The notes: generated from the letters alone by a model not told the origin. Numbered from the stretch's first letter, positions 51-52,348 are shown. The stretch is DNA of 52,348 nucleotides from a virus (IMGVR_UViG_3300044715_001249:1-52348), one strand, 5' to 3'. Made by a program: numbers and translations.

Positions 51-301
51 CCCGCGCCGCCGCCTCCAAGGCCGCCGCCGCCGACGCCGCCGCCTCCAAG
101 GCCGCCGCCCGCGCCGCCTACGCCGCTTACGCCGCCGCCGACGCCGCCCGCGCCGCCGACGCCGCCCGCGCCGCCGACGCCGCCGACGCCGCCGACGCCG
201 CCGACGCCGCCGACGCCGCCGCCGACGCCGCCGACGCCTCGTACCTGACCCAGGGCGCGGCCTTGGTGCTAACAATCCTGGCCGCCGAGGTGACCCCGTG
301 A
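2..301 (+). CDS. Ala/Asp-repeat protein, C-terminal part (continues from 51856)
   Basis: This is the 3' part of a gene whose 5' part is 51856-52348. Joined at the 50-bp overlap it would encode about 247 residues. This part is almost entirely Ala with regularly spaced Asp, Arg, Tyr and Ser-Lys pairs (DAA, RAA and YAA units), ending in a short unrelated hydrophobic tail (YLTQGAALVLTILAAEVTP). It is probably a long alpha-helical or coiled protein. No enzymatic domain is visible. The stop TGA at 299-301 overlaps the GTG start of the next gene. The repeat DNA is prone to slippage, so copy number may vary. Function unknown. Confidence 0.7.
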   Translation, partial: ARAADAADAADAAARAARAAASKAAAADAAASKAAARAAYAAYAAADAARAADAARAADAADAADAADAADAAADAADASYLTQGAALVLTILAAEVTP

Positions 302-663
302 GCACCCCCGCCTACATTGCACAGGCCCTAGAACAGGGCAAAACCATCGACGAGCTCGCGACCGAGCTCGAGGTCACGGCCCGCCACGCCCGGCGCTTGG
401 CCAAGGCCGCGGGCTGGGTCCCGGGGCCGAGGCGCTACGCCGGGCCGCGGGTGCTCAAGGTCCGCGTCGCGCCCGAGGTCTACGCCGCGATCGAGGCCCG
501 AGGTGGACGCTCGGTCGAGGACACGATCGAGGCCCTGCTCGCGATCGTGGCCGACGCCCAAGCGTGCCAGGCCACCCGCGAGAACGCGCTCAAGGGCGAC
601 AGCCATGCCTGGGCCGCGGGCTACCTCGACGCCTTCGTCGCGAGGATCGGGGGTGCGCGGTGA
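298..663 (+). CDS. Small helix-turn-helix-like protein
   Basis: 121 residues from a GTG start that overlaps the upstream stop (GTGA). Residues about 8-40 (ALEQGKTIDELATELEV then ARHARRLAKAAGW) look like a sigma-4/homeodomain-like helix-turn-helix, as in many phage DNA-binding proteins. A basic linker follows, then a helical segment. It could be a regulator of the neighbouring accessory genes, but no binding site can be tied to it from sequence. The domain call is moderate and the function is inference. Confidence 0.6.
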   Translation: MSTPAYIAQALEQGKTIDELATELEVTARHARRLAKAAGWVPGPRRYAGPRVLKVRVAPEVYAAIEARGGRSVEDTIEALLAIVADAQACQATRENALKGDSHAWAAGYLDAFVARIGGAR

Positions 664-3517: not shown

Positions 3518-3706
3518 GTGACGCCCCTCGACAAGACCGAGATCAACCGCCGCAAGAACGCGAGCCTAGTCCAGTCCCGCGTGCCGCTCGGGCTGCGCCT
3601 GCGGCTGATCCGCGAGGCGCGGCGGCAACGGGTCAGCGTCAGCGCGTTGATCGCGGCGACGCTGGCGATTGCTTTTCCTGTGGCGCCGGCGAAGATCAAG
3701 GGGTAG
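3518..3706 (+). CDS. Ribbon-helix-helix-like small regulator
   Basis: 62 residues from GTG 3518. An in-frame GTG at 3503 lies inside the -10 element and is therefore unlikely. The pattern SRVPLGLRLRLIREARR followed by SVSALIAATLAIA matches the strand-helix-turn-helix spacing of Arc/CopG-type ribbon-helix-helix DNA-binding proteins, which act as dimers. Its divergent position next to the primase promoter suggests control of that intergenic region. Fold assignment is by pattern only. Confidence 0.55.
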   Translation: MTPLDKTEINRRKNASLVQSRVPLGLRLRLIREARRQRVSVSALIAATLAIAFPVAPAKIKG

Positions 3707-9910: not shown

Positions 9911-9948
9911 GATTTTTTCTAGACACGCCCGCCCCGAGCCCGTAGAGA
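9911..9948 (+). promoter_or_regulatory. Promoter TAGACA-17-TAGAGA
   Basis: An AT-rich CGATTTTTTC tract precedes TAGACA (9920-9925), 17 bp, then TAGAGA (9943-9948), ten bases before ATG 9959. The upstream tract matches that of the operator-bearing promoters at 18.9, 47.3, 47.9, 50.06 and 51.3 kb, though TGTCCGCGG is absent here. It probably starts a transcript for 9959 to about 16.7 kb. Confidence 0.5.
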
Positions 9949-18114: not shown

Positions 18115-18876
18115 TCACGTGTCGAACGCCGACCCGATCGGGATCGTGAGCTCGACCGGGATCACGGCCCTGGCCCAGCATCGGCAGTTGATCGGCTGGC
18201 CCGGCAGGCCCTCGACCGGGTCGCCGTCGGGGTAGGGCAGGATCCGCCCGTGCAAGGCTTGATGCGCCTCGCGCACGCGATCATCCTCCTGCGTCACCCA
18301 CTCGAACTCGGTCGCCCCAATCGCCCGCGCGCGCTCGGCCTGGATCTGCGCGTGCAGGTTCGCGATCTGGTGCTGCGCGATCACCTTGAGCCGGCCCTCA
18401 AGCGAGCCGTAGGCCGTCGGGATCCCGTTCGTGGCCCACTCCGCTTGCAGCTCGGCCGAGCTCATGCCGAGGTCGAGGGCCGCGACGATGTCCTTGCGCA
18501 ACGCCTCGGCGACCTCGTCGCGCACGCCCGTGATCTTGGCCGCGGCCTCGCGGCTCCATTTCTCGACGGGGTCGAGGGTGTCACCGCGGGCCCGGGGCTT
18601 GCGTCGCGCAGCTGCAGCCCGCTCCCATCGACCCCAGCCCGAGGCCGAGCGCGCCCCGACCTTGGCCATGATCGCGGCCACGATGGCGCGGATGCGCTTG
18701 TCGGACCACGTGCGGCGCAGCGCGGCGCCGAGGGCCCGGGCGTCGGCCGGGGTCTTGACCCGCGGGAGCGTCGCCTTGATCCGCGCCACCATCGGCGCGA
18801 GCGCACGCCGTAGCTCGACCTCGAGCCCGCGCGGGGCCGGGGATCCGGCCGTCTCACGGGGCCGAGGGAGGGGCAT
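18115..18876 (-). CDS. MuF-like head morphogenesis protein
   Basis: 253 residues. The C-terminal DDRVREAHQALHGR followed by PGQPINCRCWA is the signature of phage Mu gpF-like (MuF) minor head proteins; the N-terminal 100 residues are basic and helical. These proteins sit at the portal vertex and help DNA ejection or head assembly. It follows the portal gene in the minus-strand order but is separated from it by a plus-strand gene (18950). AAGGAT lies upstream of the start. Confidence 0.85.
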   Translation of the reverse strand: MPLPRPRETAGSPAPRGLEVELRRALAPMVARIKATLPRVKTPADARALGAALRRTWSDKRIRAIVAAIMAKVGARSASGWGRWERAAAARRKPRARGDTLDPVEKWSREAAAKITGVRDEVAEALRKDIVAALDLGMSSAELQAEWATNGIPTAYGSLEGRLKVIAQHQIANLHAQIQAERARAIGATEFEWVTQEDDRVREAHQALHGRILPYPDGDPVEGLPGQPINCRCWARAVIPVELTIPIGSAFDT

Positions 18877-18901: not shown

Positions 18902-18943
18902 CGGTCGATTTATCTTGCACGTGTCCGTGGGCCCTGCTAGTTT
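18902..18943 (+). promoter_or_regulatory. Operator-type promoter TTGCAC-17-TAGTTT
   Basis: CGATTTATC, then TTGCAC (18915-18920), a 17-bp spacer beginning GTGTCCGTGG, TGC-TAGTTT (18938-18943), AGGGAC and ATG. It is the same architecture as the promoters in the 47-50 kb accessory cluster, with TGTCCGTGG in place of TGTCCGCGG. Confidence 0.75.
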
Positions 18944-18949
18944 AGGGAC

Positions 18950-19234
18950 ATGAGCCGCCGCAAGAACACCGCCGCCCGCGTCCCCTTCTCGGTCAAGGTC
19001 ATCCGCCCGTTCTCCGATGCGTCCGGCGTCGACTGCCTGATCGACGTGCTTGGATTTCGCTTCTCGGCAAACGTGCTCGGCGACGAGCGCGTGCAGATCC
19101 TGCCCGGACAGAGCGGGTCGGTCGCTGCGTCGCGTCGTGCGTATAAGCAAGCGCGCGCGGACTTCGCCGCGGCGCTGGCCGCCACGGTCGACGCTACCTG
19201 GCGCGAGGCGAATCGTGCGATGTACGCCGAGTGA
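18950..19234 (+). CDS. Accessory (moron-like) small protein
   Basis: 94 residues on the plus strand between two minus-strand head genes, with its own promoter six bases upstream. Basic N-terminus (SRRKNTAARVPFSV), then a beta-rich core (VDCLIDVLGFRFSANVLGDERVQIL) and a helical C-terminus. Not recognised. Its independent promoter and opposite orientation mark it as an inserted accessory gene, part of the operator regulon. Confidence 0.65.
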   Translation: MSRRKNTAARVPFSVKVIRPFSDASGVDCLIDVLGFRFSANVLGDERVQILPGQSGSVAASRRAYKQARADFAAALAATVDATWREANRAMYAE

Positions 19235-19236
19235 CA

Positions 19237-21069
19237 TTACGGCACCACGCCCCCACCGCCGGGGGCATCGGGCTCCGGCTCCTGGTCGGTCGGGTCGTTC
19301 GGATCCTCGGGCTCGACGATTTCCTCGTGCGCCTTGGCCATCGCCTCGACCGCGGCGAGGCTCACGACGCGGTGCGAGCCGAAGCCCCAAAACGGCAGGC
19401 CGCGCTCGATCATCCGCGTGATCGTCCGGGTCTTGATCCCGAATCGCTGCGCCGCGGCCTGCACCGTCACGCGGTCGCCCGGCAGCTCGTCGAGCGACGG
19501 CGCGGGGGCTCCGGCCGGGGCCGGCCCACCCGGCACAGGCGGCGGCCCGAGCACGCTCGCTTCGCGCCCGCGCAGGTTGGGGAACGCAACGCCGAGCGCC
19601 CCGATCCCCTGAGGGTAGGTCAGCTCGCGCATGTTTACCGCGCGCATGATGTCGATCAGGCTCGCGATCTGTGCGCCGTTCATCGCCTGATCGGCCGGGG
19701 TCGCGACCTCGGCCGGGGGCGAGGGCGTAGCCCCCGCAGCCACGCCCGCGGCCACGTCGGCCGGGTCGAGCTCGAGCGGATCGGCGTTCGCCTCGCCCGC
19801 GATCTTGATCATGCCGACATCGCCCCGGACGAACCGCGCCTCGCGGATCTCGTCCGCCGTCAGCACGCCCTTGTCGACATAGGCCGCGTCCGCGGTCGCG
19901 TTCTTGCTGTGGATCTCTGCGTCGCCCTCGGCGGATCGCGTCCACAGCGGATCCCACTCGATCTCGAACGAGTCGATCGCGAGGCCGTGCAAGCGGATCG
20001 CGATCTCGACGCCGCGCCGCAGCCCGGGATCGATCTCTTGCTTGCGCCACGATTCGACGCGCTTGTGGTAGATCTCCTGCGGCCCGCTCAACTCGCCGCC
20101 GCGCAGCCCGGTCGGGCTTTCGTTGAACAAGATCTCGCGTGGGTACTCGGTGCCGGCGACAAGCCGGCTCTCGCTCTTGTCCGCGAGCTCCGCCGCGCCG
20201 GTGAGTCCCTGCGTCACGGTGCCGAGCTCGTCGTCCTTGTCCATGACGGCGAGGCCGTAGGCATCGAGCGCCCTGCGTGTTGCGTCGGCCCGCTTCTGGA
20301 TCCGATCCATGCCGGCCTTCGTCTGCGCCTCTTGCTTGTATCCGCTGAGCCGCAGGTAGAGCAGGCTTGCCCCGTACATCATCGACACGCCGTGCGCTGC
20401 GGTGGCGCCGTAGCGGCCGAGATCGTCGAAGTGACGATCGAGCACCGACGGGCCCCAGCCCGTCGGTGACGGCGCCTCGTATTGCGCCTCGATCGGGAGC
20501 TTGATCGGTTCGTGGGGGATCGCCCGCGTGTGGTGCAGGTCGACCGAGGCGCTTGCGATGCCAGTCACCTGATAGGCGAGCGCCATCCCGTACGTCGGCG
20601 ACATCAACCCCACGTCTTGCTCGAGGGGACGCGCTCGCTCGGCCGGCACCGCGGCGAACCGCAGCAAGCGGGACGCCGGGCCGATCGCCATCGGCTGCTT
20701 CGGCTCGCCCGAGTTGAGCACGGCGATCGTCGTGATCGCGCCGCCGTATTGCCGCGCCCACTCGGCGCTCTGCCGCTCGGCCGTGGTCAGCCCAGCCGCG
20801 TCGAGCTCGGCCTTGATGGCCGCGGCGTCGAACTTGTCCGCGTCCGGGCCCGCGACCTTGGTGATTTTCCAGTCGACCGAGAACGCGGTCTCGACGATCA
20901 GCCCGACGATCCGCGCGGCGATCGGGTGCTGCCGGATCAGGGCGTCGATCATGCGCGGCGGCAGCGGCTCCCGCTGCTGGAACAGGATCCCCGCGTGCTT
21001 GTCCTTGGCAGATCCCAGGCTCGAGGTCGTCGAGGCCCAGTCGTCGATCCGTGGTGCGCGGCGCGGCAT
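19237..21069 (-). CDS. Portal protein (DUF1073-like) with C-terminal HTH
   Basis: 610 residues from ATG 21069, six bases after TGCTAAACT. The body (VDLHHTRAIPHEP, YGASLLYLRLSG, PREILFNESPTGLRGGE) follows the DUF1073 phage portal pattern, and the gene lies between TerL and MuF as expected. It would form the dodecameric DNA gate. After a Pro/Ala-rich linker, residues 532-577 (RVTVQAAAQRFGI ... SHRVVSLAAVEAM) match an excisionase/MerR-type HTH_17 domain, which is unusual for a portal. The last 30 residues are acidic then Gly-rich. Confidence 0.85.
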   Translation of the reverse strand: MPRRAPRIDDWASTTSSLGSAKDKHAGILFQQREPLPPRMIDALIRQHPIAARIVGLIVETAFSVDWKITKVAGPDADKFDAAAIKAELDAAGLTTAERQSAEWARQYGGAITTIAVLNSGEPKQPMAIGPASRLLRFAAVPAERARPLEQDVGLMSPTYGMALAYQVTGIASASVDLHHTRAIPHEPIKLPIEAQYEAPSPTGWGPSVLDRHFDDLGRYGATAAHGVSMMYGASLLYLRLSGYKQEAQTKAGMDRIQKRADATRRALDAYGLAVMDKDDELGTVTQGLTGAAELADKSESRLVAGTEYPREILFNESPTGLRGGELSGPQEIYHKRVESWRKQEIDPGLRRGVEIAIRLHGLAIDSFEIEWDPLWTRSAEGDAEIHSKNATADAAYVDKGVLTADEIREARFVRGDVGMIKIAGEANADPLELDPADVAAGVAAGATPSPPAEVATPADQAMNGAQIASLIDIMRAVNMRELTYPQGIGALGVAFPNLRGREASVLGPPPVPGGPAPAGAPAPSLDELPGDRVTVQAAAQRFGIKTRTITRMIERGLPFWGFGSHRVVSLAAVEAMAKAHEEIVEPEDPNDPTDQEPEPDAPGGGGVVP

Positions 21070-41018: not shown

Positions 41019-42200
41019 TCACGGCTGCATCTGCAGCTTGACCTTGGCGAGTGCCCCGGCCGCGGCGGTGCTCGTGTAGCGGCAGATGCTCGAGACGTCG
41101 AGCATGTCGACGTCTGCTGCGCTGACGGTCGCGGTCGCGGTCGCGGCCTCGGTGTCATCCGACCAGATGTGAACCGAGGGCTCGTCGACGAGCACACCGG
41201 CCGACGCGGCGATCGTCAGGGTCGTGGTGTTGTCGGTCGGCACGAGGACCGCGGCGAGACCATTCGCGGCGATGTCCGCGGTGACCGCATCGAACAGGCC
41301 CGCGCACGCGTCGGCGATCGACGTGGTCGCGTCGGTCGGATGATAGACGGCCTCGATCTGATACCGGCGCCCGTTGGACACGACGCCGAACGAGAACCCG
41401 TAGATCGCTCGGTTGACGACCGGGGTCACGGTGAGGGTTTGCGCCGTGCCGGCCGGGGTGTCGCCCCAGTCGCCGATGCTCGAGCCCTCGACGCGCACGT
41501 ATACGCGCGACGCCGGGGTCACGGCCTCGGTCACGGTGATCCAGAACTCGCCATCCTCGGCGATCGGGTAGTGGTGCCCGCGCAGGCACAGATCCGAATC
41601 CGTGGTCAGCTCGTCGCCGAAGTCGGACGGGAGCGCGTGAAAGTGATTCGCATCCGAGCGGAACAGCATCCCGGCGATCTGTTCGACCGTGGTGGTCGAG
41701 GTCATGGCCGCGAACTCGTCGTCGGCGGTGCCGCGTGCGACGAGCTGACCGAACGCGAGCCCGGCCCCGCCCGCGGCCGTGGTCACGGTCGAGGTCGAGG
41801 TCGCGGCCGCGCCATCGGGGCCGCCGACGCGCGTGATCGAGTACGAGCGATTGGCGTGCCGCGCGGTGAAGGCAAGCACGAGGTTGGAGCCGTCGACCTC
41901 GGTCGTGGCCGCGACGGTCACGAGCGAGTTCCACTTGGGGTTGGCTGCGACCGCGGCCCGGATCGCCGCGCCGAGGGTCGCCTCGTTCGCGCTGCCGGTG
42001 ACGCTGGGCAGTGCCCACGCCTGGCCCGACTGCAGATCGGTGATCGTCAGCGCGACGGGATCGGTACCCGCGCCGGCGGTGATCGTCAGCGACAACACCT
42101 GCGCTTGTCGAGCGAGCTGCCGCGGCCGCGAGACTCGCGGGGCGAGAAGGGGCATGCCCGCGATCGCGGGCGTCATCTGGAGTGCGTAGGTGCCTTGCAT
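41019..42200 (-). CDS. Structural cement / head decoration protein candidate
   Basis: 393 residues between protease/scaffold and capsid. Mostly beta, Thr/Ala-rich with repeated Ig-like segments (LTITAGAGTDPVALTI; FWITVTEAVTPASRVYVRVEG; TTTLTIAASAGV). Position and composition fit a capsid cement protein, unusually long for that role, so it may also present exposed Ig-like domains. Confidence 0.6.
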   Translation of the reverse strand: MQGTYALQMTPAIAGMPLLAPRVSRPRQLARQAQVLSLTITAGAGTDPVALTITDLQSGQAWALPSVTGSANEATLGAAIRAAVAANPKWNSLVTVAATTEVDGSNLVLAFTARHANRSYSITRVGGPDGAAATSTSTVTTAAGGAGLAFGQLVARGTADDEFAAMTSTTTVEQIAGMLFRSDANHFHALPSDFGDELTTDSDLCLRGHHYPIAEDGEFWITVTEAVTPASRVYVRVEGSSIGDWGDTPAGTAQTLTVTPVVNRAIYGFSFGVVSNGRRYQIEAVYHPTDATTSIADACAGLFDAVTADIAANGLAAVLVPTDNTTTLTIAASAGVLVDEPSVHIWSDDTEAATATATVSAADVDMLDVSSICRYTSTAAAGALAKVKLQMQP

Positions 42201-44076: not shown

Positions 44077-44349
44077 ATGCTCAGCACCAAGCAAGCCCGC
44101 GTTCTGACTCACCTCGCCGCCCGCTCGATCTCGGGGGCGCCGTCGGTCCTCTCCATCGTCCGCGCGCTCGAGACGGACCGCGGCCACGCGGCCGGCTATC
44201 TCCGACTGGCGCGGCTCGCCAAGCGTGGGATGGTGACCATCCTCCCGCTGCACGAGGGTGCGCGCCGCGTGCTGATCACGGCCGCGGGTCTGCGCGAGGT
44301 TGCGGGCGTGTACCCGTACGCGGCGGATGCAGGCCGCGTCACCACGTGA
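44077..44349 (+). CDS. Winged-helix (MarR-like) small regulator
   Basis: 90 residues from ATG 44077, with AGGA just upstream; GTG/ATG starts back to 44002 are possible. LSTKQARVLTHLAARSISG ... LARLAKRGMVTIL ... GARRVLITAAGLREV is a winged-helix pattern with recognition helix and wing. Plus-strand gene between minus-strand fibre and head genes, overlapping the fibre gene 3' end by 11 bp. Candidate regulator of the divergent head operon promoter. Confidence 0.6.
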   Translation: MLSTKQARVLTHLAARSISGAPSVLSIVRALETDRGHAAGYLRLARLAKRGMVTILPLHEGARRVLITAAGLREVAGVYPYAADAGRVTT

Positions 44350-45685
44350 ACACGTAGACCGCGCCGGAGCCGCCTGAGCCGCCGTTGCCGCCGCGGTTGC
44401 CCGCGCCTTCGCCGACCCCGCCACCGCCACCGCCACCGCCGTGGGATCCGCCAGCCCCGCCGTTGCCGCCGTTGGTGCCGGTCGTGATCGTGCCGCCGCC
44501 GCCACCGCCACCTGCACCGCCGCGCGCTGCACTGCCATCGGCGCCCGCCGAGCCAGCGGTCGGCGATACGCCGCCCGTGCCCGCGGCCCCGCCGGTACCG
44601 GCCGCGATCACGCCCGAGGCGCCGCCGGCCGTGGGCGCGATCAGGGCCGGGGTCACGGTCGCCCCGCCACCGCAGCCACCGCCGCCCCCGCCGAACAAGG
44701 ATCCGCCGCCGGCACCGTTGGCTGGCACGCTCGTGTGCCCGCCCCCGCCCCCGCCCCCGCTCTCCGCCGAGATCGCGGCCGTGGCAGAGGCTCCGCCGTT
44801 GCCGCCGCAGCCCCCGCTCGGGGTCGCTGGTGTACCCGGCCCGCCGCCTGCGCCGGCCGAGGCCGTGCCCACGGCGCCCACCGCACCGGCGCCACCGCCA
44901 CCGCCACCGCCGCCGGCCGTGGCCGCGTTGTCTCCGAGCTGCCCGCCACCGCCGCCGAAGGCTTGGGCGAGGTTGGTGCCGCTCGAGAACTGGCTCGTGC
45001 CCCCGGCCGCGCCCGCGGTCCCGTCCGCGCCGGTGTTTCCGACACCGGCGACGCCCGAGGCGCCGACCGTGACGGGCTCGGTCGGGCCGAGTTCGGACGC
45101 TCGATACCAGCGCTCGACCCGAGCACCGCCCCCGCCCCCGCACCCGCCCGTGCGCACGACACCGCCGGTCTGCGACGCGCCACCGCCACCGCCACCGCCA
45201 CCGCCGAACAGCACGACGCGCACGAACGTCGGCGAGAACGTCGTGGGCTTCGTCCACGTCGGCGAGCCCGGCGTGGTGAAGGGTTGCACGTCGGCCTGCG
45301 CGGCGCCGTTGATCGTCTGCTCAGCACCAGCGGCGTTGTATCGCTTCCATCCCGCTCCATGATGATACACGCACGATTCGGCGGGCGCGAGCGTGCCCGA
45401 CCACATGCGAGCAAGCGTCGCGTTGTCGCTGAACGAGATCGTGACCGTTTGCGCGGCTGCGTCGGTGTTGAACACCGAGATCATTTCGACGCTGCGCTGC
45501 GTGCTCGCGGCCGGGCTCCCGACGATCGTCACCGGCGTGGTGCCGTTCGAGTTGATGCGCGTGCGCCCGGCCGTGAAATCGGTTGCGGTCTGGTCGGCCC
45601 AGAACGCCGTGCACTGCACGGTCGTGGCCGAGCCCGAGGCAAGCACAAGCGCGATCGTGTCGGTCGTTGCGGATAGCGTGATCAT
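44339..45685 (-). CDS. Glycine-rich tail fibre tip, paralogue B
   Basis: 448 residues (ATGA overlap with the upstream fibre). The N-terminal 150 residues form a beta domain (TLSATTDTIALVLASGSATTVQC; VEMISVFNTDAAAQTVTISF). The C-terminal 290 are Gly-rich with RTGGCGGGGGARVER, FGGGGGQLGDNAATAG, SLFGGGGGGCGGG and terminal AVYVFTW, matching 24193-25416 motif for motif. Likely receptor-binding tip at the end of the collagen-like fibre. Confidence 0.8.
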   Translation of the reverse strand: MITLSATTDTIALVLASGSATTVQCTAFWADQTATDFTAGRTRINSNGTTPVTIVGSPAASTQRSVEMISVFNTDAAAQTVTISFSDNATLARMWSGTLAPAESCVYHHGAGWKRYNAAGAEQTINGAAQADVQPFTTPGSPTWTKPTTFSPTFVRVVLFGGGGGGGGGASQTGGVVRTGGCGGGGGARVERWYRASELGPTEPVTVGASGVAGVGNTGADGTAGAAGGTSQFSSGTNLAQAFGGGGGQLGDNAATAGGGGGGGGAGAVGAVGTASAGAGGGPGTPATPSGGCGGNGGASATAAISAESGGGGGGGHTSVPANGAGGGSLFGGGGGGCGGGATVTPALIAPTAGGASGVIAAGTGGAAGTGGVSPTAGSAGADGSAARGGAGGGGGGGTITTGTNGGNGGAGGSHGGGGGGGGVGEGAGNRGGNGGSGGSGAVYVFTW

Positions 45686-46920
45686 CGGTGATAGGCCCTC
45701 GTCTGGACTTGCGCGTGGGTCATGGCTGCGATCGCGGATGCGAGCTGCGCCGCGGTGAGCTCGGCGGCCGCGCCCGCGCCGGCGGTCGTCTTGCCGGCGA
45801 ATCGAGGCCCGGCCGCGAACTGGAGATCGGTGATCGCCCCGCTCGCCGCCACGCTCGCGAGCGCGACCGAGACCACGCTCGTACCGCTGCGGCGCAAGAA
45901 CTCGCCGTCGGCGATCGCGTCCACGTCAAGCGTGGTCCCGTTCGCGTCGAGTTGCGTCGCGGCCCCGCCCCCGCCACCGGGCGCGACCCATGTCCCATCC
46001 GCGCGCAAGAAGTTCGACGTGCCGCCGCCGCTGAGCGGCACGAGCCCGGACGCGGACGCGGTGAAGTTCGCGATCACGTCGCCGCCGCCCGTGACGTGCG
46101 CCGTCGCGTGACTCGTCGGGGTTCGCGCGTCGCTCAGGCGCGCGTCGTTGCCGACGCAGACCGTCGTGCCCGTCGAGCCCGTGGCGAGGCGCGCGAACGG
46201 CAGGGTCCCGGTCGTGAGATCGGCGGCCGAGCCCGAGCTCGCGACCGCGACAAGGCCGAGCGTCGTGCGGGCCGCGGACGCGTCCGCGTCATCGACGAGC
46301 GTCGCGCCGAAGGCCGAGATCCCGTGCACGGCCGAAGTCACCGCGGCGTGGGTCGCGATCCCGCCCGCGGCCTCGTACGCGCTCGCGGCCGTGGTCGCGG
46401 CCGTGCCAAGGCCGAGCGTTGTGCGCTGCGCCGCGGCGTCGGCATCGTCGAGGATCGCGCGACCGGCCGCCGTGATGTCGGTCACGTCGACCATCACGTG
46501 CGTGTGCGCGGTCGGGGCTCGCGCGTCGCTCAGCCGCGCATCGTTGCCGATGCAGACCGTCGACCCCGTCGAGCCCGTGGCGAGGCGTGCGAACGGAAGC
46601 GTCCCGGTCGTGAGATCGGCCGCGCTAGCGCTCGACGCGACAGTCGCCAGCCCGAGGGCGGCGCGAGCCGCGGCTGCGTCGAGGGCCGCGATGATGGTTG
46701 CACCGAAGGTCGTGATCCCGTGCACGCCCGAGGTCAAGGCCGCGTGCGTGGCCACGTCCCCGCCGCCGGATCCGTCCTCGCCGGGCTCCCCCTGGGGCCC
46801 GGGCGGGCCCTCGATCACGTTCGGGATCGTGATGCGGATCACGTCACCGAAGCGCAGCAGCTGCGAGCCGCGCGTCTCGACGACACCTGAGAGCTGGATC
46901 GGTCGGCGCGTCGAGGCCAC
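45682..46920 (-). CDS. Collagen-like tail fibre with internal repeats
   Basis: 412 residues from GTG 46920, five bases after TGCTACCCT; GTG 46935 is the alternative. N-terminal GPPGPQGEPGEDG is collagen-like. Two long repeats follow, each with ASSASAADLTTGTLPFARLAT or close variants and NDARLSDARxPT, as in phage tail-fibre shafts. Together with the coupled Gly-rich tip it forms a second fibre locus far from the baseplate genes. Confidence 0.8.
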   Translation of the reverse strand: MASTRRPIQLSGVVETRGSQLLRFGDVIRITIPNVIEGPPGPQGEPGEDGSGGGDVATHAALTSGVHGITTFGATIIAALDAAAARAALGLATVASSASAADLTTGTLPFARLATGSTGSTVCIGNDARLSDARAPTAHTHVMVDVTDITAAGRAILDDADAAAQRTTLGLGTAATTAASAYEAAGGIATHAAVTSAVHGISAFGATLVDDADASAARTTLGLVAVASSGSAADLTTGTLPFARLATGSTGTTVCVGNDARLSDARTPTSHATAHVTGGGDVIANFTASASGLVPLSGGGTSNFLRADGTWVAPGGGGGAATQLDANGTTLDVDAIADGEFLRRSGTSVVSVALASVAASGAITDLQFAAGPRFAGKTTAGAGAAAELTAAQLASAIAAMTHAQVQTRAYHR

Positions 46921-46925
46921 GCCCC

Positions 46926-46944
46926 AGGGTAGCACAGGCTACCC
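46926..46944 (-). promoter_or_regulatory. Fibre promoter overlapped by a palindrome
   Basis: Minus-strand extended -10 TGCTACCCT (46934-46926) before GTG 46920. It is embedded in GGGTAGC-ACAG-GCTACCC (46927-46944), a perfect 7-bp inverted repeat. A repressor binding it, or a hairpin in RNA, would control fibre expression. Confidence 0.55.
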
Positions 46945-46960: not shown

Positions 46961-47311
46961 CTAGAACACGAGGTAGACGTCAGGGATGACCGAGACCTCG
47001 CCGCGGCCTCTGGTCTCGCGGGTCCAGCCGAAGCGGGTGAAGGTGGGGTTTGGGAGCTCACACCCGCCATCGATGCGGCGGAGCGTGCGACGCACCGCGA
47101 CCTCGCCGCCGAGCCGGGCGACGAAGATCCGCGCGACCCGCTTCGCGGCCTGCTCGGCCGTCTCGCCCGCGGCATAGTCGAACATGTCCGAGCCACGGAA
47201 GCGGCAAAGCACGCCGTCGATGACGCGCGAGCGCTTTTGCACGGTGATGCACCCGGCGCCGAAGCGGATCTCGGCGATGGGGGTTTCGGTCGCGGTCGAA
47301 GTCGTTGCCAT
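46961..47311 (-). CDS. Accessory protein with Thr-rich leader
   Basis: 116 residues from ATG 47311, six bases after TAGGCT. MATTSTATETPIAEI is the Thr/Glu-rich N-terminus shared with other genes of the cluster. A compact beta-rich domain follows (GCITVQKRSRVIDGVLCRFRGSDMFDY ... EVSVIPDVYLVF). Unknown function. Last gene of the minus-strand accessory cluster. Confidence 0.65.
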   Translation of the reverse strand: MATTSTATETPIAEIRFGAGCITVQKRSRVIDGVLCRFRGSDMFDYAAGETAEQAAKRVARIFVARLGGEVAVRRTLRRIDGGCELPNPTFTRFGWTRETRGRGEVSVIPDVYLVF

Positions 47312-47317
47312 GTCCCT

Positions 47318-47346
47318 AGCCTACTGCACGCCGCGGACATGTGCAA
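47318..47346 (-). promoter_or_regulatory. Operator-type promoter TTGCAC-17-TAGGCT
   Basis: Minus strand: TTCTTGCAC, spacer with ATGTCCGCGG, TAGGCT, AGGGAC, ATG. The spacer also has TGCAC/GTGCA arms flanking ATGTCCGCGGC. Nearly identical to the promoter at 47887-47915, including the upstream GGTCGATTGTTC. Confidence 0.8.
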
Positions 47347-47413
47347 GAACAATCGACCCGGGGGCCGGCCGAGGCCCTCACAGCACGTCGGCAGACCACG
47401 CCGCCGTCAAGGT

Positions 47414-47638
47414 CTAGCCGCTGACCTCGCGCACGACCAGGGGCGTGTTGCAGTCCTCGGCGAACGCCGCGTCGACCACGCGCTCGGCCGCTGCTCGGCG
47501 CTTGAACACCCGGACGGCGTCTGCCTTGCGATAGACACCGTCGGCGCGCCACACAAAGACCCCGAACACGTTCGGATGCCCGGCGGGGGCCGAGCGCGCT
47601 GCTTCGACCTCCGCCATCCACGGGGCCCGCCGTGCCAC
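47414..47638 (-). CDS. Hypothetical small protein
   Basis: 74 residues from GTG 47638, sharing one base with the upstream TAG. FGVFVWRADGVYRKADAVRVFKRRAAAERVVDAAF looks like a small alpha/beta fold. Co-transcribed with 47880. Unknown. Confidence 0.5.
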   Translation of the reverse strand: MARRAPWMAEVEAARSAPAGHPNVFGVFVWRADGVYRKADAVRVFKRRAAAERVVDAAFAEDCNTPLVVREVSG

Positions 47639-47880
47639 TAGAACGCACCCCAGAGCTTCGAGCCGTACGCCGGGATCGAGGTGTAGAGGCCAGCCCGCGC
47701 GCGGCGGGCGTTCGCCTTGCGCCAGGCCGCTGCAGCTGCCGACGCGCCGATCGTGTCGGCAATGTGCTCAGCGGCCCATTCGATCGCCTCTGCCGGGGCG
47801 GTCAGCACGGTGACGCCGTAGCGGTTTGCGAGCGTGGCGGTCAGGGTGGTGGTCTCGGTCGCGGTCGTCGTCGTTGCCAT
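47638..47880 (-). CDS. Accessory protein with Thr-rich leader
   Basis: 80 residues from ATG 47880, six bases after TAGGTT. MATTTTATETTTLTATL resembles the start of 47311 and other cluster genes. A helical core follows (AEAIEWAAEHIADTIGASAAAAAWRKANARRARAG) and an aromatic end. No family recognised. Confidence 0.6.
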   Translation of the reverse strand: MATTTTATETTTLTATLANRYGVTVLTAPAEAIEWAAEHIADTIGASAAAAAWRKANARRARAGLYTSIPAYGSKLWGAF

Positions 47881-47886
47881 GTCCCT

Positions 47887-47915
47887 AACCTACTGCATGC
47901 CGCGGACATGTGCAA
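47887..47915 (-). promoter_or_regulatory. Operator-type promoter TTGCAC-17-TAGGTT
   Basis: Minus strand: TTGCAC (47915-47910), spacer ATGTCCGCGGCATGCAG, TAGGTT (47892-47887), AGGGAC, ATG. About 55 bases around it match 47309-47360 with only a few substitutions. Confidence 0.8.
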
Positions 47916-48021
47916 GAACAATCGACCGCTCGATCTCGAGCAAGGCCGCGGCCGCGGCTCGGGCGAGGATGCGGGCGCGGGCGCAGCGGGCCGCGATCAA
48001 GGCGTGCTTCGTCGGGGTCAT
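47890..48021 (-). CDS. Possible small basic helical protein (43 aa)
   Basis: ATG 48021 to TAG 47890: MTPTKHALIAARCARARILARAAAA and onward. It fills the gap after 48036 and ends inside the next promoter. Helical and basic, no family. High-GC sequence makes chance ORFs likely. Confidence 0.3.
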   Translation of the reverse strand: MTPTKHALIAARCARARILARAAAAALLEIERSIVLAHVRGMQ

Positions 48022-48035
48022 GCCCGACCCATCGG

Positions 48036-48395
48036 CTACCGGCGCCGGTACTTGAACGCGAGCGACTCCGCGGCCTCGGCGATGTCCTCGGGCGTCGCCG
48101 AGGCCGGGCGCATGCCCGCGAGCTCGCACAGCTCGAACACGGCGCGCACGTGGTGCTCATCCCATCGCTCGGCCTCGACCTGGTAGAGGGCGTCGATCAG
48201 CGACTCGGTCGCGACCTGGGCCGGGCGCCCGCCATAGCGCGGCCGGGGCGGGACCCAGTCAAGGATCTTGCGCGCGTCCGCGGCGAAGACTTCGGCCGCG
48301 TGCTCGGGCGCCTCGGCGCGTTCGCGCCACATCTTGACGTCGGCCTCGAGCAACTCGATCTGGCGCTTGGCCTGGGCTAGTGTGAGCTTACTCAT
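48036..48395 (-). CDS. Hypothetical coiled-coil protein
   Basis: 119 residues from ATG 48395 (ATGA overlap with the lipoprotein stop; ATG 48401 also in frame). Coiled N-terminus (LTLAQAKRQIELLEADVKMWRERAEA), Pro/Arg linker, then a helical domain ending LAFKYRRR. Co-expressed with the zinc-protease lipoprotein. Confidence 0.55.
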   Translation of the reverse strand: MSKLTLAQAKRQIELLEADVKMWRERAEAPEHAAEVFAADARKILDWVPPRPRYGGRPAQVATESLIDALYQVEAERWDEHHVRAVFELCELAGMRPASATPEDIAEAAESLAFKYRRR

Positions 48396-48871
48396 AGACA
48401 TCCTCGTGTGAAGCGCGCTGCGCTCTCGTGCACGGCCTCGATCTGGTCGGCGTCGAACGTGGCATTCGGATCGCGCCCGAGCCGGCTCCCGTGCATGATG
48501 TTGGCGGGGTCGTCGTCGTGTTCGAGCAGAAACACGTGCCCGATCTCGTGCGCGATCGTTAGCGGGCGGACCTCGACGCGCGCGGCCTTGCGACACCAGC
48601 CCCGGCCCTCGGTCTTGCCCGAGATCCCCTCGCCCGCGTCGTCGACGAGGCGCAGCCGCACCACGCCCCAGCGCTCGGTGGTCTCGGTGCGGTAGCAGTC
48701 GAGGTCGAGCGCGGCACACGCCTCGAGCACGGCCTCGGGCAACAGCGGGCCCCAGGCATCGTGCTCGACCTCGGCCGGGGTCTCGCGCTCGTCAGCGACG
48801 TGCACCGCGATCGGCCGGGGCGCGCCGCAGCCCCCGAGCAGGGCCGCGGCGAGGGCGATGCGAGCGGTCAC
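48392..48871 (-). CDS. Lipoprotein with metzincin-like zinc site
   Basis: 159 residues from GTG 48871 (GTGA overlap). MTARIALAAALLGGC is a short signal with lipobox LGGC (Cys15). HEIGHVFLLEH (108-118) followed by DDDPANIMHG gives HExxHxxxxxH plus a Met-turn (M126), the arrangement of metzincin proteases such as matrixins, though the family Gly in the motif is Leu. Predicted to be exported and lipid-anchored in the periplasm or outer membrane. Possible target: host surface or competing phage proteins. Unusual cargo for a phage. Confidence 0.75.
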   Translation of the reverse strand: MTARIALAAALLGGCGAPRPIAVHVADERETPAEVEHDAWGPLLPEAVLEACAALDLDCYRTETTERWGVVRLRLVDDAGEGISGKTEGRGWCRKAARVEVRPLTIAHEIGHVFLLEHDDDPANIMHGSRLGRDPNATFDADQIEAVHESAARFTRGCL

Positions 48872-49047
48872 CGCCCACCGTATCGGGCGATGTGCCGCGC
48901 GCGGTCGATGCTCTTGCCGAGGTAGCGATCGGGCTCGCAACCCATGGCGCCCGTCACGACGCCGTCGCGCGTGATGAGAAAGATCTGCCCGCCCGAGAGC
49001 TTGTCGCGAAGGGTCAGGCGCGTCGCGGTCGTCTTGATCGTTTCCAT
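48868..49047 (-). CDS. Accessory protein with Thr-rich leader
   Basis: 59 residues. Start set at ATG 49047, six bases after TAGGAT as in sister genes; ATG 49053 abuts the -10. METIKTTATRLTL, then a beta hairpin (GGQIFLITRDGVVTGAMG) and DRYLGKSIDRARHIARYG. Stop overlaps the lipoprotein GTG, so both form one operon. Confidence 0.6.
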   Translation of the reverse strand: METIKTTATRLTLRDKLSGGQIFLITRDGVVTGAMGCEPDRYLGKSIDRARHIARYGGR

Positions 49048-49053
49048 GTCCAT

Positions 49054-49081
49054 ATCCTAGCTTATGCCGCGGACATTACAA
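49054..49081 (-). promoter_or_regulatory. Operator-type promoter TTGTAA-16-TAGGAT
   Basis: Minus strand: TTGTAA (49081-49076, overlapping the stop of the upstream gene), spacer TGTCCGCGGCATAAGC, TAGGAT. Drives the gene at 49047 and the lipoprotein. Confidence 0.75.
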
Positions 49082-49444
49082 GGCCCAGATCAAGAACCCG
49101 ATCGCGAGCAAAGTCACGAACGCGGCCTCAGCCACGCGCTCGATCCTGCGGCACACGCGCTCGTGCTCGGCCTCGCGCTCGCGCGCGGTCCGATCGGCCA
49201 GGTCGCGGATCTCGCGCATGGTCCGGTCCGAGAGTGCGGTCATGCGCGCGAACGCGGCGGCGAGCGGCCGCGACGCGCGCACGGGCCGGGCTGTGGCAAC
49301 CGGCGCGCCGGCCTTGAGCCACGCGTCGATCTCGGCCTCGAGCTCGCGCTCGCGCGGGATCGGTGTGACCTCGGTCAACTCGGCGTGGGGGCGGGACCCG
49401 ACCGTGATGGCGCGGCGGGCGGTGACGGTCTCGGTGGCGGGCAT
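49076..49444 (-). CDS. Tail-anchored coiled-coil protein
   Basis: 122 residues from ATG 49444, six bases after TAGTAT. MPATETVTARRAITV leader, then helical sequence with ELEAEIDAWLKAG and DRTAREREAEHERVCRRIERVAEA and a single C-terminal membrane span (AAFVTLLAIGFLIWAL). Tail-anchored topology with the N-terminus in the cytoplasm. Candidate membrane-acting exclusion or lysis-accessory protein; unknown. Confidence 0.6.
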   Translation of the reverse strand: MPATETVTARRAITVGSRPHAELTEVTPIPRERELEAEIDAWLKAGAPVATARPVRASRPLAAAFARMTALSDRTMREIRDLADRTAREREAEHERVCRRIERVAEAAFVTLLAIGFLIWAL

Positions 49445-49620
49445 GTCCTTATACTACCGATCTCGTGTCCGATCCGGTAGTCGTGTTCGCACCGGAGCGA
49501 GAACGTCATCCGTCCGCGCCGGCCGTCGTCGATGCCGAGCTCGATGGCGCCGGCGACCTCCTCGAGGACGCCGTCGATCGCGTCGGCCAGCTGGGCCGCG
49601 AAAGCGTCGAGGCCGGTCAC
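49375..49620 (-). CDS. Possible small protein overlapping the next gene
   Basis: 81 residues from GTG 49620 (GTGA overlap). The first half is plausible (TGLDAFAAQLADAIDGVLEEVAGAIELG) and the Pro-rich second half overlaps the promoter and first 70 bases of 49444. It could be real with a dispensable tail. Confidence 0.4.
   Translation of the reverse strand: MTGLDAFAAQLADAIDGVLEEVAGAIELGIDDGRRGRMTFSLRCEHDYRIGHEIGSIRTCPPPRPSPPAAPSRSGPAPTPS
49451..49479 (-). promoter_or_regulatory. Promoter variant with TAGTAT -10
   Basis: Minus strand TAGTAT (49456-49451), AAGGAC, ATG, as in the operator family, but the -35 (TACCGG) is poor and TGTCCGCGG is missing; a GGACAC word lies in the spacer. Confidence 0.5.
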
Positions 49621-49790
49621 GGCTTCACCTCGTTGTGAGTGGGGAGCGTCGCCTCGTCCACACCGGACGGAACGCGGACCTTGAGCACGCGACCGCACCG
49701 CGAGCAGCGGGTGCGGCCCGCAAGGGCTTCGCCAACGGACAGCATCACGCGCGCGCCGCTGTTCCAACACTTGTTCTTGTTCTTGGTCAT
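49617..49790 (-). CDS. Small zinc-ribbon protein (57 aa)
   Basis: 57 residues from ATG 49790. MTKNKNKCWNSG begins it, then RTRCSRCGRVLKVRVP gives a CxxC after an isolated Cys8, and an acidic tail. Stop overlaps the next GTG. Likely a zinc-ribbon accessory. Confidence 0.55.
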   Translation of the reverse strand: MTKNKNKCWNSGARVMLSVGEALAGRTRCSRCGRVLKVRVPSGVDEATLPTHNEVKP

Positions 49791-49850
49791 GGTCGTGGCT
49801 CCGGTGGTGGTGGGCTCAGAAGGTGCGCGGGGGCGGGGCCCCGGCCGGGC

Positions 49851-50057
49851 TCAGGCCGCGCAGCTCGGCCAGGGCGAGTGCTCGCACTCGCGGCAGACCG
49901 CGACACCGGCGACGAAGTGCCACGTGCGGGTGCTCGTGTAGTCGCACCGGCCGTGGTAGGCGAAGCCGGTCAGGGAGTAGATCGGGGCGCCATCCCACCG
50001 GGTCTCGGTCTCGTTCGTAGGGCAGGTCGCGGCGGCGGGTGCGGCGGTCGTTTCCAT
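49851..50057 (-). CDS. Accessory Cys-containing small protein
   Basis: 68 residues from ATG 50057, six bases after TAGGAT. METTAAPAAATCPTNETET is the Thr-rich leader; the rest contains C12, C38, C55, C58 (CRECEH) and C66, consistent with a zinc ribbon. Unknown function. Member of the operator regulon. Confidence 0.6.
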   Translation of the reverse strand: METTAAPAAATCPTNETETRWDGAPIYSLTGFAYHGRCDYTSTRTWHFVAGVAVCRECEHSPWPSCAA

Positions 50058-50063
50058 GTCCTT

Positions 50064-50092
50064 ATCCTAGCTCAAGCCGCGGACATCGTCAA
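50064..50092 (-). promoter_or_regulatory. Operator-type promoter TTGACG-17-TAGGAT
   Basis: Minus strand: CGATTTCTTC, TTGACG, spacer ATGTCCGCGGCTTGAGC, TAGGAT, AAGGAC, ATG 50057. Best -35 of the family. It overlaps the last codons of the HTH gene upstream. Confidence 0.8.
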
Positions 50093-50577
50093 GAAGAAAT
50101 CGGCACGTCCTCAACGTTTTCCGTGGCGAGCTCGATCGCGCGCAGGACCTCGGCCGCGGCCTCGACCGGGTCGGGGGCATCGGCGGCCGGGTCGTGCCTC
50201 GAGCGGCGCTCGCGCGCGAGCTCGACGATCTTGCCCGCGGCCGCGATCCGGTCCGCGCCTCGGCCGACCTGTGACTCCGCCACCCACACGCGCAGGGCAT
50301 AGGCCTCCAGCTCGTCCGGGGTCGCGTCCTCGGCCGGGGGCTCGAGGTGGCTCACGGCCTCGACGACCGCGGCCTTGGCCGCTTGCTTGGCGGTCGGGGC
50401 CGCTGGACAGCTCAAGGGCCATTTGGGCCCGTACACGGCCCGCTCCCGCTGAATCTGCCTTCGGACGGTCCGCCGATCGACCCCGAACTTGGTCGCGATC
50501 ACGTGCTGCGGGGTGTCGTTGAGCAGCAGCAGCCGCAGGGCTTCGGAATCGATGACGGGGGCTGTCGGGTCGGCCAC
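50089..50577 (-). CDS. HTH protein; small terminase candidate
   Basis: 162 residues from GTG 50577. LLLNDTPQHVIATKFGVDRRTVRRQIQRE (about 16-45) is a clear helix-turn-helix. The rest is helical (EAYALRVWVAESQVGRGADRIAAAGKIVELARERR). Small terminases share this shape, and no other TerS is evident, but it lies far from TerL in the linear map. A regulator of the accessory cluster is the alternative. Confidence 0.55.
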   Translation of the reverse strand: MADPTAPVIDSEALRLLLLNDTPQHVIATKFGVDRRTVRRQIQRERAVYGPKWPLSCPAAPTAKQAAKAAVVEAVSHLEPPAEDATPDELEAYALRVWVAESQVGRGADRIAAAGKIVELARERRSRHDPAADAPDPVEAAAEVLRAIELATENVEDVPISS

Positions 50578-50586
50578 GGCTCGTCA

Positions 50587-50595
50587 AGTGTAGCA
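50587..50595 (-). promoter_or_regulatory. Extended -10 promoter for the HTH gene
   Basis: Minus strand TGCTACACT, nine bases before GTG 50577. No -35 visible. Recurring TGCTAnnnT class. Confidence 0.5.
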
Positions 50596-50788
50596 CGCGA
50601 CGAAGCTTGGCGCGGCTCGCGCTGGACTCGGTCGCGGCGTGCAGCGGGACCCTACTTTTTATGGACAAGATCTGAACTGACGACGACGTCTACGAGAAAA
50701 TCCCCTAGATCCTAGTAGTCTACATTACACGATCTCGCCGCCTTCCGACTACAGCACAGCGAACGATCCAGATCATCGCCAAAAAAAG

Positions 50789-50797
50789 TGCTACGGT
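50789..50797 (+). promoter_or_regulatory. Extended -10 promoter TGCTACGGT
   Basis: Plus strand, preceded by seven A residues and followed by seven bases and ATG 50805. Leaderless-type spacing. Confidence 0.5.
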
Positions 50798-50804
50798 CGA
50801 AATC

Positions 50805-51320
50805 ATGCTGTACCAGTTCCCGATCCTGCAAACCGACTACAAGACCGCTAAAACCGTGGCCAGCGGCAAGTTCTCGCTAACGAGCGTGTATCACGCGGCT
50901 TTCAAGATCGGTCGATCAATCTGGGATATTACTCGCCCCGATTTATGCGGCGAAAAGCCCTCGCCAGCGTCGCCCGGGCAACTCGCGAGCTTGCCGTGGG
51001 ATGCGCGCGAGTGGCCCGAGGATCGCGCGTGGTCAGCGAGCGCGTGTGCGCGATGGTGCGTCCATGTAGGCCTGCCGCTCGTGGCGCGGCACATGCCCCC
51101 GCCCCCGCCGAAGCCGCTGCCCCCGCCCGTGAGCGGCGTCCACCTGCTCCTGGATCGCCCCGACCCGAGGATCACCTACCCGCACGCCTACGTCGACAAG
51201 CCGCGCGGCGAGGCCAAGCTCGTGGCGTATGCCGCGTCTCACGGGTACGGGATCGACTGGGCGGCGGAGTCGCCCCGGATCGTGTCGCTCGTGTCCGCGC
51301 CGGTGTTCCCGCTCGAGTGA
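50805..51320 (+). CDS. Hypothetical protein with AT-richer 5' end
   Basis: 171 residues. The first 45 (MLYQFPILQTDYKTAKTVASG ... IWDITRPDLCG) use many more A/T-ending codons than the rest; the middle has a Pro run (MPPPPPKPLPPP) and the C-terminus is alpha/beta (KLVAYAASHGYGIDWAAESPRIVSLV). May be a fusion of imported and resident sequence. No family recognised. Confidence 0.6.
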   Translation: MLYQFPILQTDYKTAKTVASGKFSLTSVYHAAFKIGRSIWDITRPDLCGEKPSPASPGQLASLPWDAREWPEDRAWSASACARWCVHVGLPLVARHMPPPPPKPLPPPVSGVHLLLDRPDPRITYPHAYVDKPRGEAKLVAYAASHGYGIDWAAESPRIVSLVSAPVFPLE

Positions 51321-51323
51321 CGT

Positions 51324-51372
51324 CGATTTTTCTTGTCCGAGCCCTTGTCATGTCCGCGGACGCTGCTAGGAT
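51324..51372 (+). promoter_or_regulatory. Operator-type promoter TTGTCA-16-TAGGAT
   Basis: CGATTTTTCTTGTCC upstream, TTGTCA (51345-51350), TGTCCGCGGACGCTGC, TAGGAT (51367-51372). Contains the perfect palindrome GTCCGCGGAC. Unlike its sisters, no usable gene starts six bases later; a leader of about 50 nt follows. Confidence 0.75.
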
Positions 51373-51380
51373 AGAGACGT

Positions 51381-51412
51381 GGGCGGGAGAGCAGCGCATC
51401 GCTGCACCGCCC
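51381..51412 (+). promoter_or_regulatory. Structured 5' leader hairpin
   Basis: GGGCGG-gaga-GCAGCG-cat-CGCTGC-a-CCGCCC: two perfect 6-bp stems stacked with an internal loop. GGAG follows at once, ten bases before ATG 51428. Could control translation or stabilise the mRNA. Confidence 0.6.
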
Positions 51413-51427
51413 CGGAGAAACGACACG

Positions 51428-51709
51428 ATGACCACCGAGACCATTACCGCCACCATCACCGACCGCGACACCGCGACCACCATCGGCCTGGCCGGATCGG
51501 TCGACGCCGACATCGCTCTTGATGGTACGCACATCGGTCGCGTGACGCTCGCACGCGACGACCACGGCACGCTCGGCATCTGGGGTGACACGATCGACAA
51601 CTGGGCGGATACGAACCTCTGTCAGCGGCTGGTCGCGCTCGGAAAGAACGAGCGCCGCGAGATGATCGGCGAGATCGAGGACGCCGTGCGACTCGCCGCG
51701 AGACGCTGA
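51428..51709 (+). CDS. Accessory protein with Thr-rich leader
   Basis: 93 residues. MTTETITATITDRDTATTI is the cluster-type N-terminus. A beta-rich middle (DADIALDGTHIGRVTLARDDHGTLGIWGD) precedes a helical end. Only regulon member with a 5' leader and a conventional ribosome site (GGAG). Unknown function. Confidence 0.65.
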   Translation: MTTETITATITDRDTATTIGLAGSVDADIALDGTHIGRVTLARDDHGTLGIWGDTIDNWADTNLCQRLVALGKNERREMIGEIEDAVRLAARR

Positions 51710-51773: not shown

Positions 51774-51855
51774 GCGTGTGAGCACCCCACCTCTACCCGC
51801 CCCCATCATCCTGACCCGAGGCTCGCACGAGAGCCCCACCGAAGGCCTGTGCGCC

Positions 51856-52348
51856 ATGGAGCTGACCGCGTACCTCGCGGGCGAGCGCCACAGCGATCAC
51901 CCGGCCTGCGCGTGTCCAGTACTCGCCGCGTTCGTTCGGCGCGTCAACGACGCGAGCGCCTGGCCGAGCGACGCGGCACGTACCGCAGCGCTCGAGCCCG
52001 TCTCGCGCGCGCTGATCGGCAGCGCAGACCCCGCAAAGCGACAGAGCCGAGCACTCGCCCTGACTGACTGGGGGCTCCGAGTGTGTCGGCTCGCGCAGGC
52101 TCGCGCGCGCGGCTGGGCCAAGATCGCGGCAGCGATCGACGAGCTCGCCCCGATCGTGGATCGAAAATCGGCCTTGGCTGCGCGTGATGCGCTGCTTGAC
52201 GCTCGCGCCGACGCCGCCTACGCCGCCGACGCCGCCGCCCGCGCCGGCGACGCCGCCGCCTACGCCGCCGCCTACGCCGCTTACGCCGCCGCCGACGCCG
52301 CCCGCGCCGCCGACGCCGCCGACGCCGCCGACGCCGCCGCCCGCGCCG
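51856..52348 (+). CDS. Ala/Asp-repeat protein, N-terminal part (continues at 2-301)
   Basis: ATG 51856 opens a frame that runs off the end; at the 50-bp overlap it continues in frame to 301. The first 115 residues are a normal helical domain (MELTAYLAGERHSDHPACACPVLAAF ... WGLRVCRLAQARARGWAKIAAAIDELAP), followed by the DAAYAADAAARAG repeat region. AAGG lies upstream. Function unknown; long Ala-rich helices may form coiled rods. Confidence 0.7.
   Translation, partial: MELTAYLAGERHSDHPACACPVLAAFVRRVNDASAWPSDAARTAALEPVSRALIGSADPAKRQSRALALTDWGLRVCRLAQARARGWAKIAAAIDELAPIVDRKSALAARDALLDARADAAYAADAAARAGDAAAYAAAYAAYAAADAARAADAADAADAAARA
52299..52348. repeat. Direct terminal repeat, right copy
   Basis: Identical to 1-50; see the left copy. 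Confidence 0.85.

Follow-up and report, generated by a model that had tools for sequence, protein, structure and literature searches.

The 52,348-bp window analyzed here, the whole of an IMG/VR virus record (IMGVR_UViG_3300044715_001249), contains six promoters that share a nine-nucleotide word, TGTCCG(C/T)GG, in the spacer between the -35 and -10 hexamers. The composite pattern TTG-N3/4-TGTCCG(C/T)GG-N7-TAGNNT occurs six times in the window, compared with 0 occurrences in 200 dinucleotide shuffles. We judge it slightly more probable than an even chance that these are host-sigma promoters of accessory gene cassettes, and that the word is an asymmetric site, particular to this phage, through which one regulator controls all of the units, with repression the favored sign.

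Six promoters with a common spacer word

Four of the promoters lie on the minus strand: TTGCAC-A-TGTCCGCGG-CGTGCAG-TAGGCT (47318–47346), followed by AGGGAC-ATG at the start of the 46961–47311 gene; TTGCAC-A-TGTCCGCGG-CATGCAG-TAGGTT (47887–47915), with AGGGAC-ATG at the start of 47638–47880; TTGTAA-TGTCCGCGG-CATAAGC-TAGGAT (49054–49081), with ATGGAC-ATG at the start of 48868–49047; and TTGACG-A-TGTCCGCGG-CTTGAGC-TAGGAT (50064–50092), with AAGGAC-ATG at the start of 49851–50057. The plus-strand members are TTGTCA-TGTCCGCGG-ACGCTGC-TAGGAT (51345–51372), where an apparent leader precedes the ATG at 51428, and the diverged TTGCAC-G-TGTCCGTGG-GCCCTGC-TAGTTT (18915–18943), with AGGGAC-ATG at the start of 18950–19234. 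A pattern search, whose control reading returned no match, recovered with matching positions and strands the five sites that a preliminary description of this DNA had proposed, and the diverged copy that it proposed is likewise correct. Its two partial variants are not members: at 9920 the CGATTTTTTC tract is present and the TGTCC word is missing, and the promoter at 49442–49456 (minus strand; 49451 in that description) has the same -10, discriminator, and ATG (TAGTAT-AAGGAC-ATG) but neither a -35 nor the word.

All six sites have a sigma-70/sigma-A form (TTG and TAGNNT hexamers, 16–17 bp spacing), and only two, 50064 and 51345, pass a strict 9/12 sigma-70 consensus scan. At every site the word lies 7 nt before the -10, at approximately -28 to -20, and is oriented in the direction of transcription. 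A CGATTnnTTC-like tract, previously listed as shared upstream of most sites, abuts the -35 at four of them (CGATTGTTC beside the 47318 promoter). The 51345 copy is set back upstream by another ∼14 nt, and that at 49054 is degenerate. The tract may represent an UP-like element or a terminator T-tract.

The enrichment of the bare 9-mer is too weak to serve as evidence (6 found, 2.1 expected, a count reached in 3 of 100 shuffles). Only one exact copy, the sixth, falls outside the promoters; it lies at 41273 within a structural gene and has no promoter. With up to one mismatch, the word occurs in 56 places, and it stands 10–60 nt upstream of a start only at the six promoters.

In pairwise comparison of the sites, the core agrees at 8–9 of 9 positions in all pairs. 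Conservation extends to the -10 and the discriminator, whereas the seven nucleotides between the word and the -10 agree at 0 to 6 positions (0–3 in most pairs) and the upstream DNA is near random in most pairs. The distance from word to -10 is invariant, whereas distances on the -35 side and to the tract vary. A conserved core at a fixed distance from the -10, amid diverged flanks, points to a functional role and not simply to copying, apart from the promoters at 47318 and 47887. These two are 93% identical across an 81-nt stretch that takes in the first codons and are a recent duplication, leaving about five independent sites. The best dyads at the six sites pair 4–6 of 9 positions with differing centers, and the only palindromic part of the word, CCGCGG, is absent at 18915; with no consistent dyad, a palindromic operator for a dimeric repressor is not supported. 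A methyltransferase site was also considered and rejected, as the window holds CCGCGG at close to the expected frequency (142 occurrences, 132 expected), with no avoidance and no marked excess.

Predicted leaderless starts and the genes behind the promoters

In five of the six promoters, the hexanucleotide ANGGAC separates the -10 from the ATG, and the same 6-nt distance occurs at 49444; the corresponding motif, TAGNNTNNGGACATG, has six exact matches, with 0.09 expected even when one mismatch is allowed. Given standard promoter spacing, this gap places the first transcribed base at the A of the ATG, so that five units are predicted to make leaderless mRNAs. Neither this geometry nor the similarity of the first codons, which are Thr-rich across units (MATTT, METT, MTTET), had been reported in the preliminary description. 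Of 61 called genes, 8 have a TANNNT hexamer that ends 6 nt before the start, whereas no other offset up to 39 is represented by more than 2, and the portal gene has the same leaderless -10 geometry in the window and in two relatives (L145 and L029). In RNA folds of 50 nt, four of the five leaderless starts are less structured than the shuffle mean and one is about average. The exception to the geometry is the 51345 promoter, with a predicted +1 near 51379, a hairpin leader (51379–51427; -21.8 kcal/mol, z -1.7), GGAG, and the ATG at 51428. A 47-aa frame rich in His and Arg starts from a GTG at that +1 position.

The genes behind the promoters are small and mostly unrelated, as had been described, and family searches on the small unit proteins returned orphans with no family. 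On the minus strand, the 47318 promoter precedes a gene for a 116-aa protein (MATTSTATET..., 46961–47311), and the 47887 promoter precedes an 80-aa protein (MATTTTATET..., 47638–47880) followed by one of 74 aa (47414–47638). The 49054 unit, also on the minus strand, encodes a 59-aa protein (METIKTTATR..., 48868–49047), a putative lipoprotein zinc protease (48392–48871), and a 119-aa protein (48036–48395). The protease assignment remains plausible, given a lipobox-like LAAALLGGCG, which holds the LGGCG motif, and HEIGHVFLLEH, although its Pfam metzincin matches are below the cut-off. The 50064 promoter is followed by a 68-aa protein (METTAAPAAA..., 49851–50057, minus strand).

On the plus strand, the 51345 promoter precedes a 93-aa protein (MTTETITATIT..., 51428–51709), for which a family scan gave no match. 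A homolog in contig L070 (34% identity, pairwise E 3e-10) is itself leaderless and lies behind a different spacer with the inverted repeat CATTCGTC-T-GACGAATG. Perfect inverted repeats of this kind, the classic form of a dimer operator, occur in the leaderless spacers of both L044 (GTCTAACAG-GTGG-CTGTTAGAC) and L070. The second gene begins the 5′ part of a 286-aa Ala-rich protein (51778–52348, plus strand), composed of Ala/Asp-rich repeats (ADAADAAY...). The contig ends share an 11-nt overlap, and this open reading frame (ORF) stays in frame across the joined ends, with its stop at 299–301; the genome is thus probably circular or circularly permuted, with the contig broken within the repeat. 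If circular, the Ala-rich frame continues through 1–301 and is joined by a GTGA overlap to a gene for a 121-aa helix-turn-helix (HTH)-like protein (298–663, plus strand), the third of this predicted unit.

Morons are accessory genes that have been inserted among other phage genes together with a promoter, and they are usually autonomous units. The unit of the diverged promoter, which encodes a 94-aa protein (18950–19234, plus strand), lies antisense between the portal gene (19237–21069, minus strand) and a head-morphogenesis gene (18115–18876, minus strand), and no convincing terminator was found after 19234. Because this junction is gapless in the closest relative, L145, where the two genes overlap, the unit, which is small, antisense, and equipped with a promoter, reads as a moron-like insertion; the difference is that several units here share one promoter-internal word.

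Family scans place the window, with a GC content of ∼70%, among the tailed phages (primase, exonucleases, DNA polymerase, deoxynucleoside monophosphate phosphatase, methyltransferase, portal, terminase, capsid, tape measure, and baseplate wedge), and its last 12 kb has no near match in the phage collection. Tail genes, Gly-rich and collagen-like, occupy 44339–46935, and a GTG at 46920 has a -10-like TACCCT 5 nt upstream. A 901-aa plus-strand frame opposite the tape measure gene was set aside as a spurious ORF; scans for relatives with this frame, and with the capsid protein, gave no match.

Related phages and known repeated promoter elements

Portal-based and promoter-based searches identified the relatives G001 (L030), L029, L145, and G017, all of which are distant, and many gene families are common to the window and the relatives, including G001 and G017. 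In G001, there are six leaderless promoters, five of which have a spacer like nCTCGAAGCGTTCTGT, a -10 of TATCTT, and TCTCTC before the ATG; a CGATTT tract adjoins the -35 in some, and the copies are alike over ∼60 bp. Upstream of some of these repeated promoters is a dyad, AAATCGA-CCGGGCCCTT-TCGATTT. Approximately four leaderless promoters in G017 have related C/G-rich spacers and shared first codons. The same layout with a word of its own is found in an unrelated group of contigs, G003, G010, and G014 (L042, L061, L065), represented by three promoters; their leaderless promoters carry a doubled TTGAC (CTTGACAACCCCTTGACGGGCGAG-TAGGAT), with two to three genes per contig.

Spacer identity within a phage is 0.69 for the window, 0.71 for G001, 0.48 for G017, and 0.73 for the G003 group, compared with 0.26 between phages, in sets of manually transcribed spacers that were chosen for having such promoters and left uncorrected for the relatedness of the copies. 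The corresponding value for G012 is 0.29 over 18 leaderless promoters with no common word, and the leaderless architecture therefore does not force a common word. On this contig (L131, 55001–74663), ∼20 leaderless promoters, mostly TTGACA-like, are crowded on one strand, and many genes appear to have a promoter of their own. From these comparisons, the promoter chassis appears to be common and the spacer word phage-specific; a word that differs between related phages is as expected of a site and regulator that co-evolve.

By analogy, the system would work like two known classes of mycobacteriophage elements while belonging to neither. Cluster K phages such as Adephagia carry ESAS elements, seven 46–47 bp repeats upstream of genes, each with a SigA-like promoter (17–18 bp spacing), a shared internal element, and a putative regulator, and repression at the repeats is considered plausible (PMC11373665). 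Repeated promoters with a shared internal element are a point of likeness. In ESAS, however, the promoter accompanies an imperfect inverted repeat (15–17 bp) followed by the SAS near the start codon, whereas the window has an asymmetric 9-mer within the spacer, no dyad consistent across the six sites, and mostly leaderless predicted transcripts. The operators and stoperators of cluster A phages (L5, TipsytheTRex) are, as here, short, asymmetric, oriented with transcription, and repeated in the genome, and they are bound by an HTH monomer (PMC9283540). Stoperators are 13-mers, dispersed at >20 per genome in promoters and short intergenic spaces, whereas every functional-looking copy here is inside a promoter at a fixed spacing and only one exact copy lies elsewhere; no family matching the cluster A-type repressor (HTH-stoperator-domain) was found among the scanned proteins. 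The distance from -10 to start resembles that of the leaderless “-10 motif” genes of Deinococcus-Thermus, in which the hexamer lies 6–7 bp upstream of the start codon (PMC12340547). That is a host-wide mode without a common spacer word, unlike the subset described here, in which a -35 and a shared word accompany the -10.

Proposed control of the promoters

Under the reading favored here, host RNA polymerase with sigma-A/sigma-70 would use the six promoters, five of which would start at the A of the ATG, 6 nt after the -10. Each would drive a short accessory unit, at least one being a moron-like antisense insertion, and one phage-encoded regulator would bind TGTCCG(C/T)GG in the spacer to control all units jointly, with steric occlusion, i.e., repression, as the simplest and favored sign. 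Of the earlier proposal that a common bound protein blocks all of the sites together, the shared factor is still the natural reading, given the constraint on the word; the blocking is indistinguishable from activation. The suggestion of early takeover or superinfection control is without support, and neither an integrase nor an immunity repressor was found among the window proteins scanned for families.

Four genes had been named as candidate regulators. The best candidate is the HTH-like gene at 298–663, since joining the contig ends, which preserves the reading frame, puts it in the predicted operon behind the 51345 promoter; its HTH_23 match is weak and below the cut-off, and a single-sequence structure model was of low confidence and too poor for a structure search. 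The protein at 50089 (50089–50577) has a confident N-terminal tri-helix in its predicted structure and no structure-search match at E ≤ 0.001, and could be a regulator or, equally, a small terminase subunit. Those at 3518 and 44077 have no above-threshold family.

Several observations weigh against this interpretation. The six sites have no dyad in common and thus do not show the form usual for a dimeric repressor, and no confident repressor family was found among the scanned window proteins. The same word was found in no relative in scans of viral_contigs: a search for the word plus -10 gave 22 matches, all in unrelated contexts, and a stricter scan gave one, in a contig of 38% GC, that looks coincidental. 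Additionally, copying of a promoter cassette could account for some of the shared sequence, as in the 47318/47887 duplication and the ∼60 bp over which the G001 copies are alike.

Taken further, such copying would dispense with a trans-acting factor altogether: one strong promoter cassette would have been copied with moron-like genes, and the word would be a relic or an intrinsic strength element. The duplicate at 47318 and 47887 extends into coding sequence, the first codons are also common to the units, and the long likeness among the G001 copies fits as well. We nevertheless regard this as unlikely, given that sites such as 47318 and 51345 have diverged nearly everywhere to approximately chance except for the core (9/9), the -10, and the discriminator, and that the word is dispensable for leaderless promoters: those at 49444 and of the portal gene lack it, and the 18 of G012 have no word in common. 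Somewhat less doubtful, though still improbable, is an activator or sigma-appropriation element, in which a phage protein on TGTCCGCGG beside RNA polymerase stimulates the promoters and so defines a co-activated gene class. With a fixed 7-nt distance to the -10, an activator contacting RNA polymerase fits as well as a repressor; that distance holds at all six sites while those on the -35 side change, and several -35 hexamers are poor (TTGCAC, TTGTAA), with only two sites reaching 9/12. Yet TTG is kept at every site, so that the contact with sigma region 4 is probably still made; a protein bound in the spacer, the location of the word, more often blocks; and no activator family was found; repression is somewhat likelier than activation. 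Phages are known to borrow host regulators, and the word could be the operator of one that this phage exploits. A scan of ∼85,000 species genomes makes this very improbable, returning 21 single matches, about the chance number, none of them in a leaderless GGAC-ATG context or repeated within the stretch examined; a cellular regulon was rejected on this basis, and related phages use different words.

If the joint control of the six promoters by one phage regulator is correct, a single short word would mark a phage accessory-gene program readable from the sequence, and would offer a route to co-regulated accessory genes in uncultured phages. More tentatively, and with less than even probability, there may be a lineage of high-GC tailed phages that keep a fixed leaderless chassis for moron-like accessory genes and swap the spacer word along with its cognate regulator. 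Each phage would then have an operator code of its own, by which cassettes that it newly acquires come under its control, and the constant architecture, set against phage-specific words, would make the co-evolution of operator and regulator testable across relatives.

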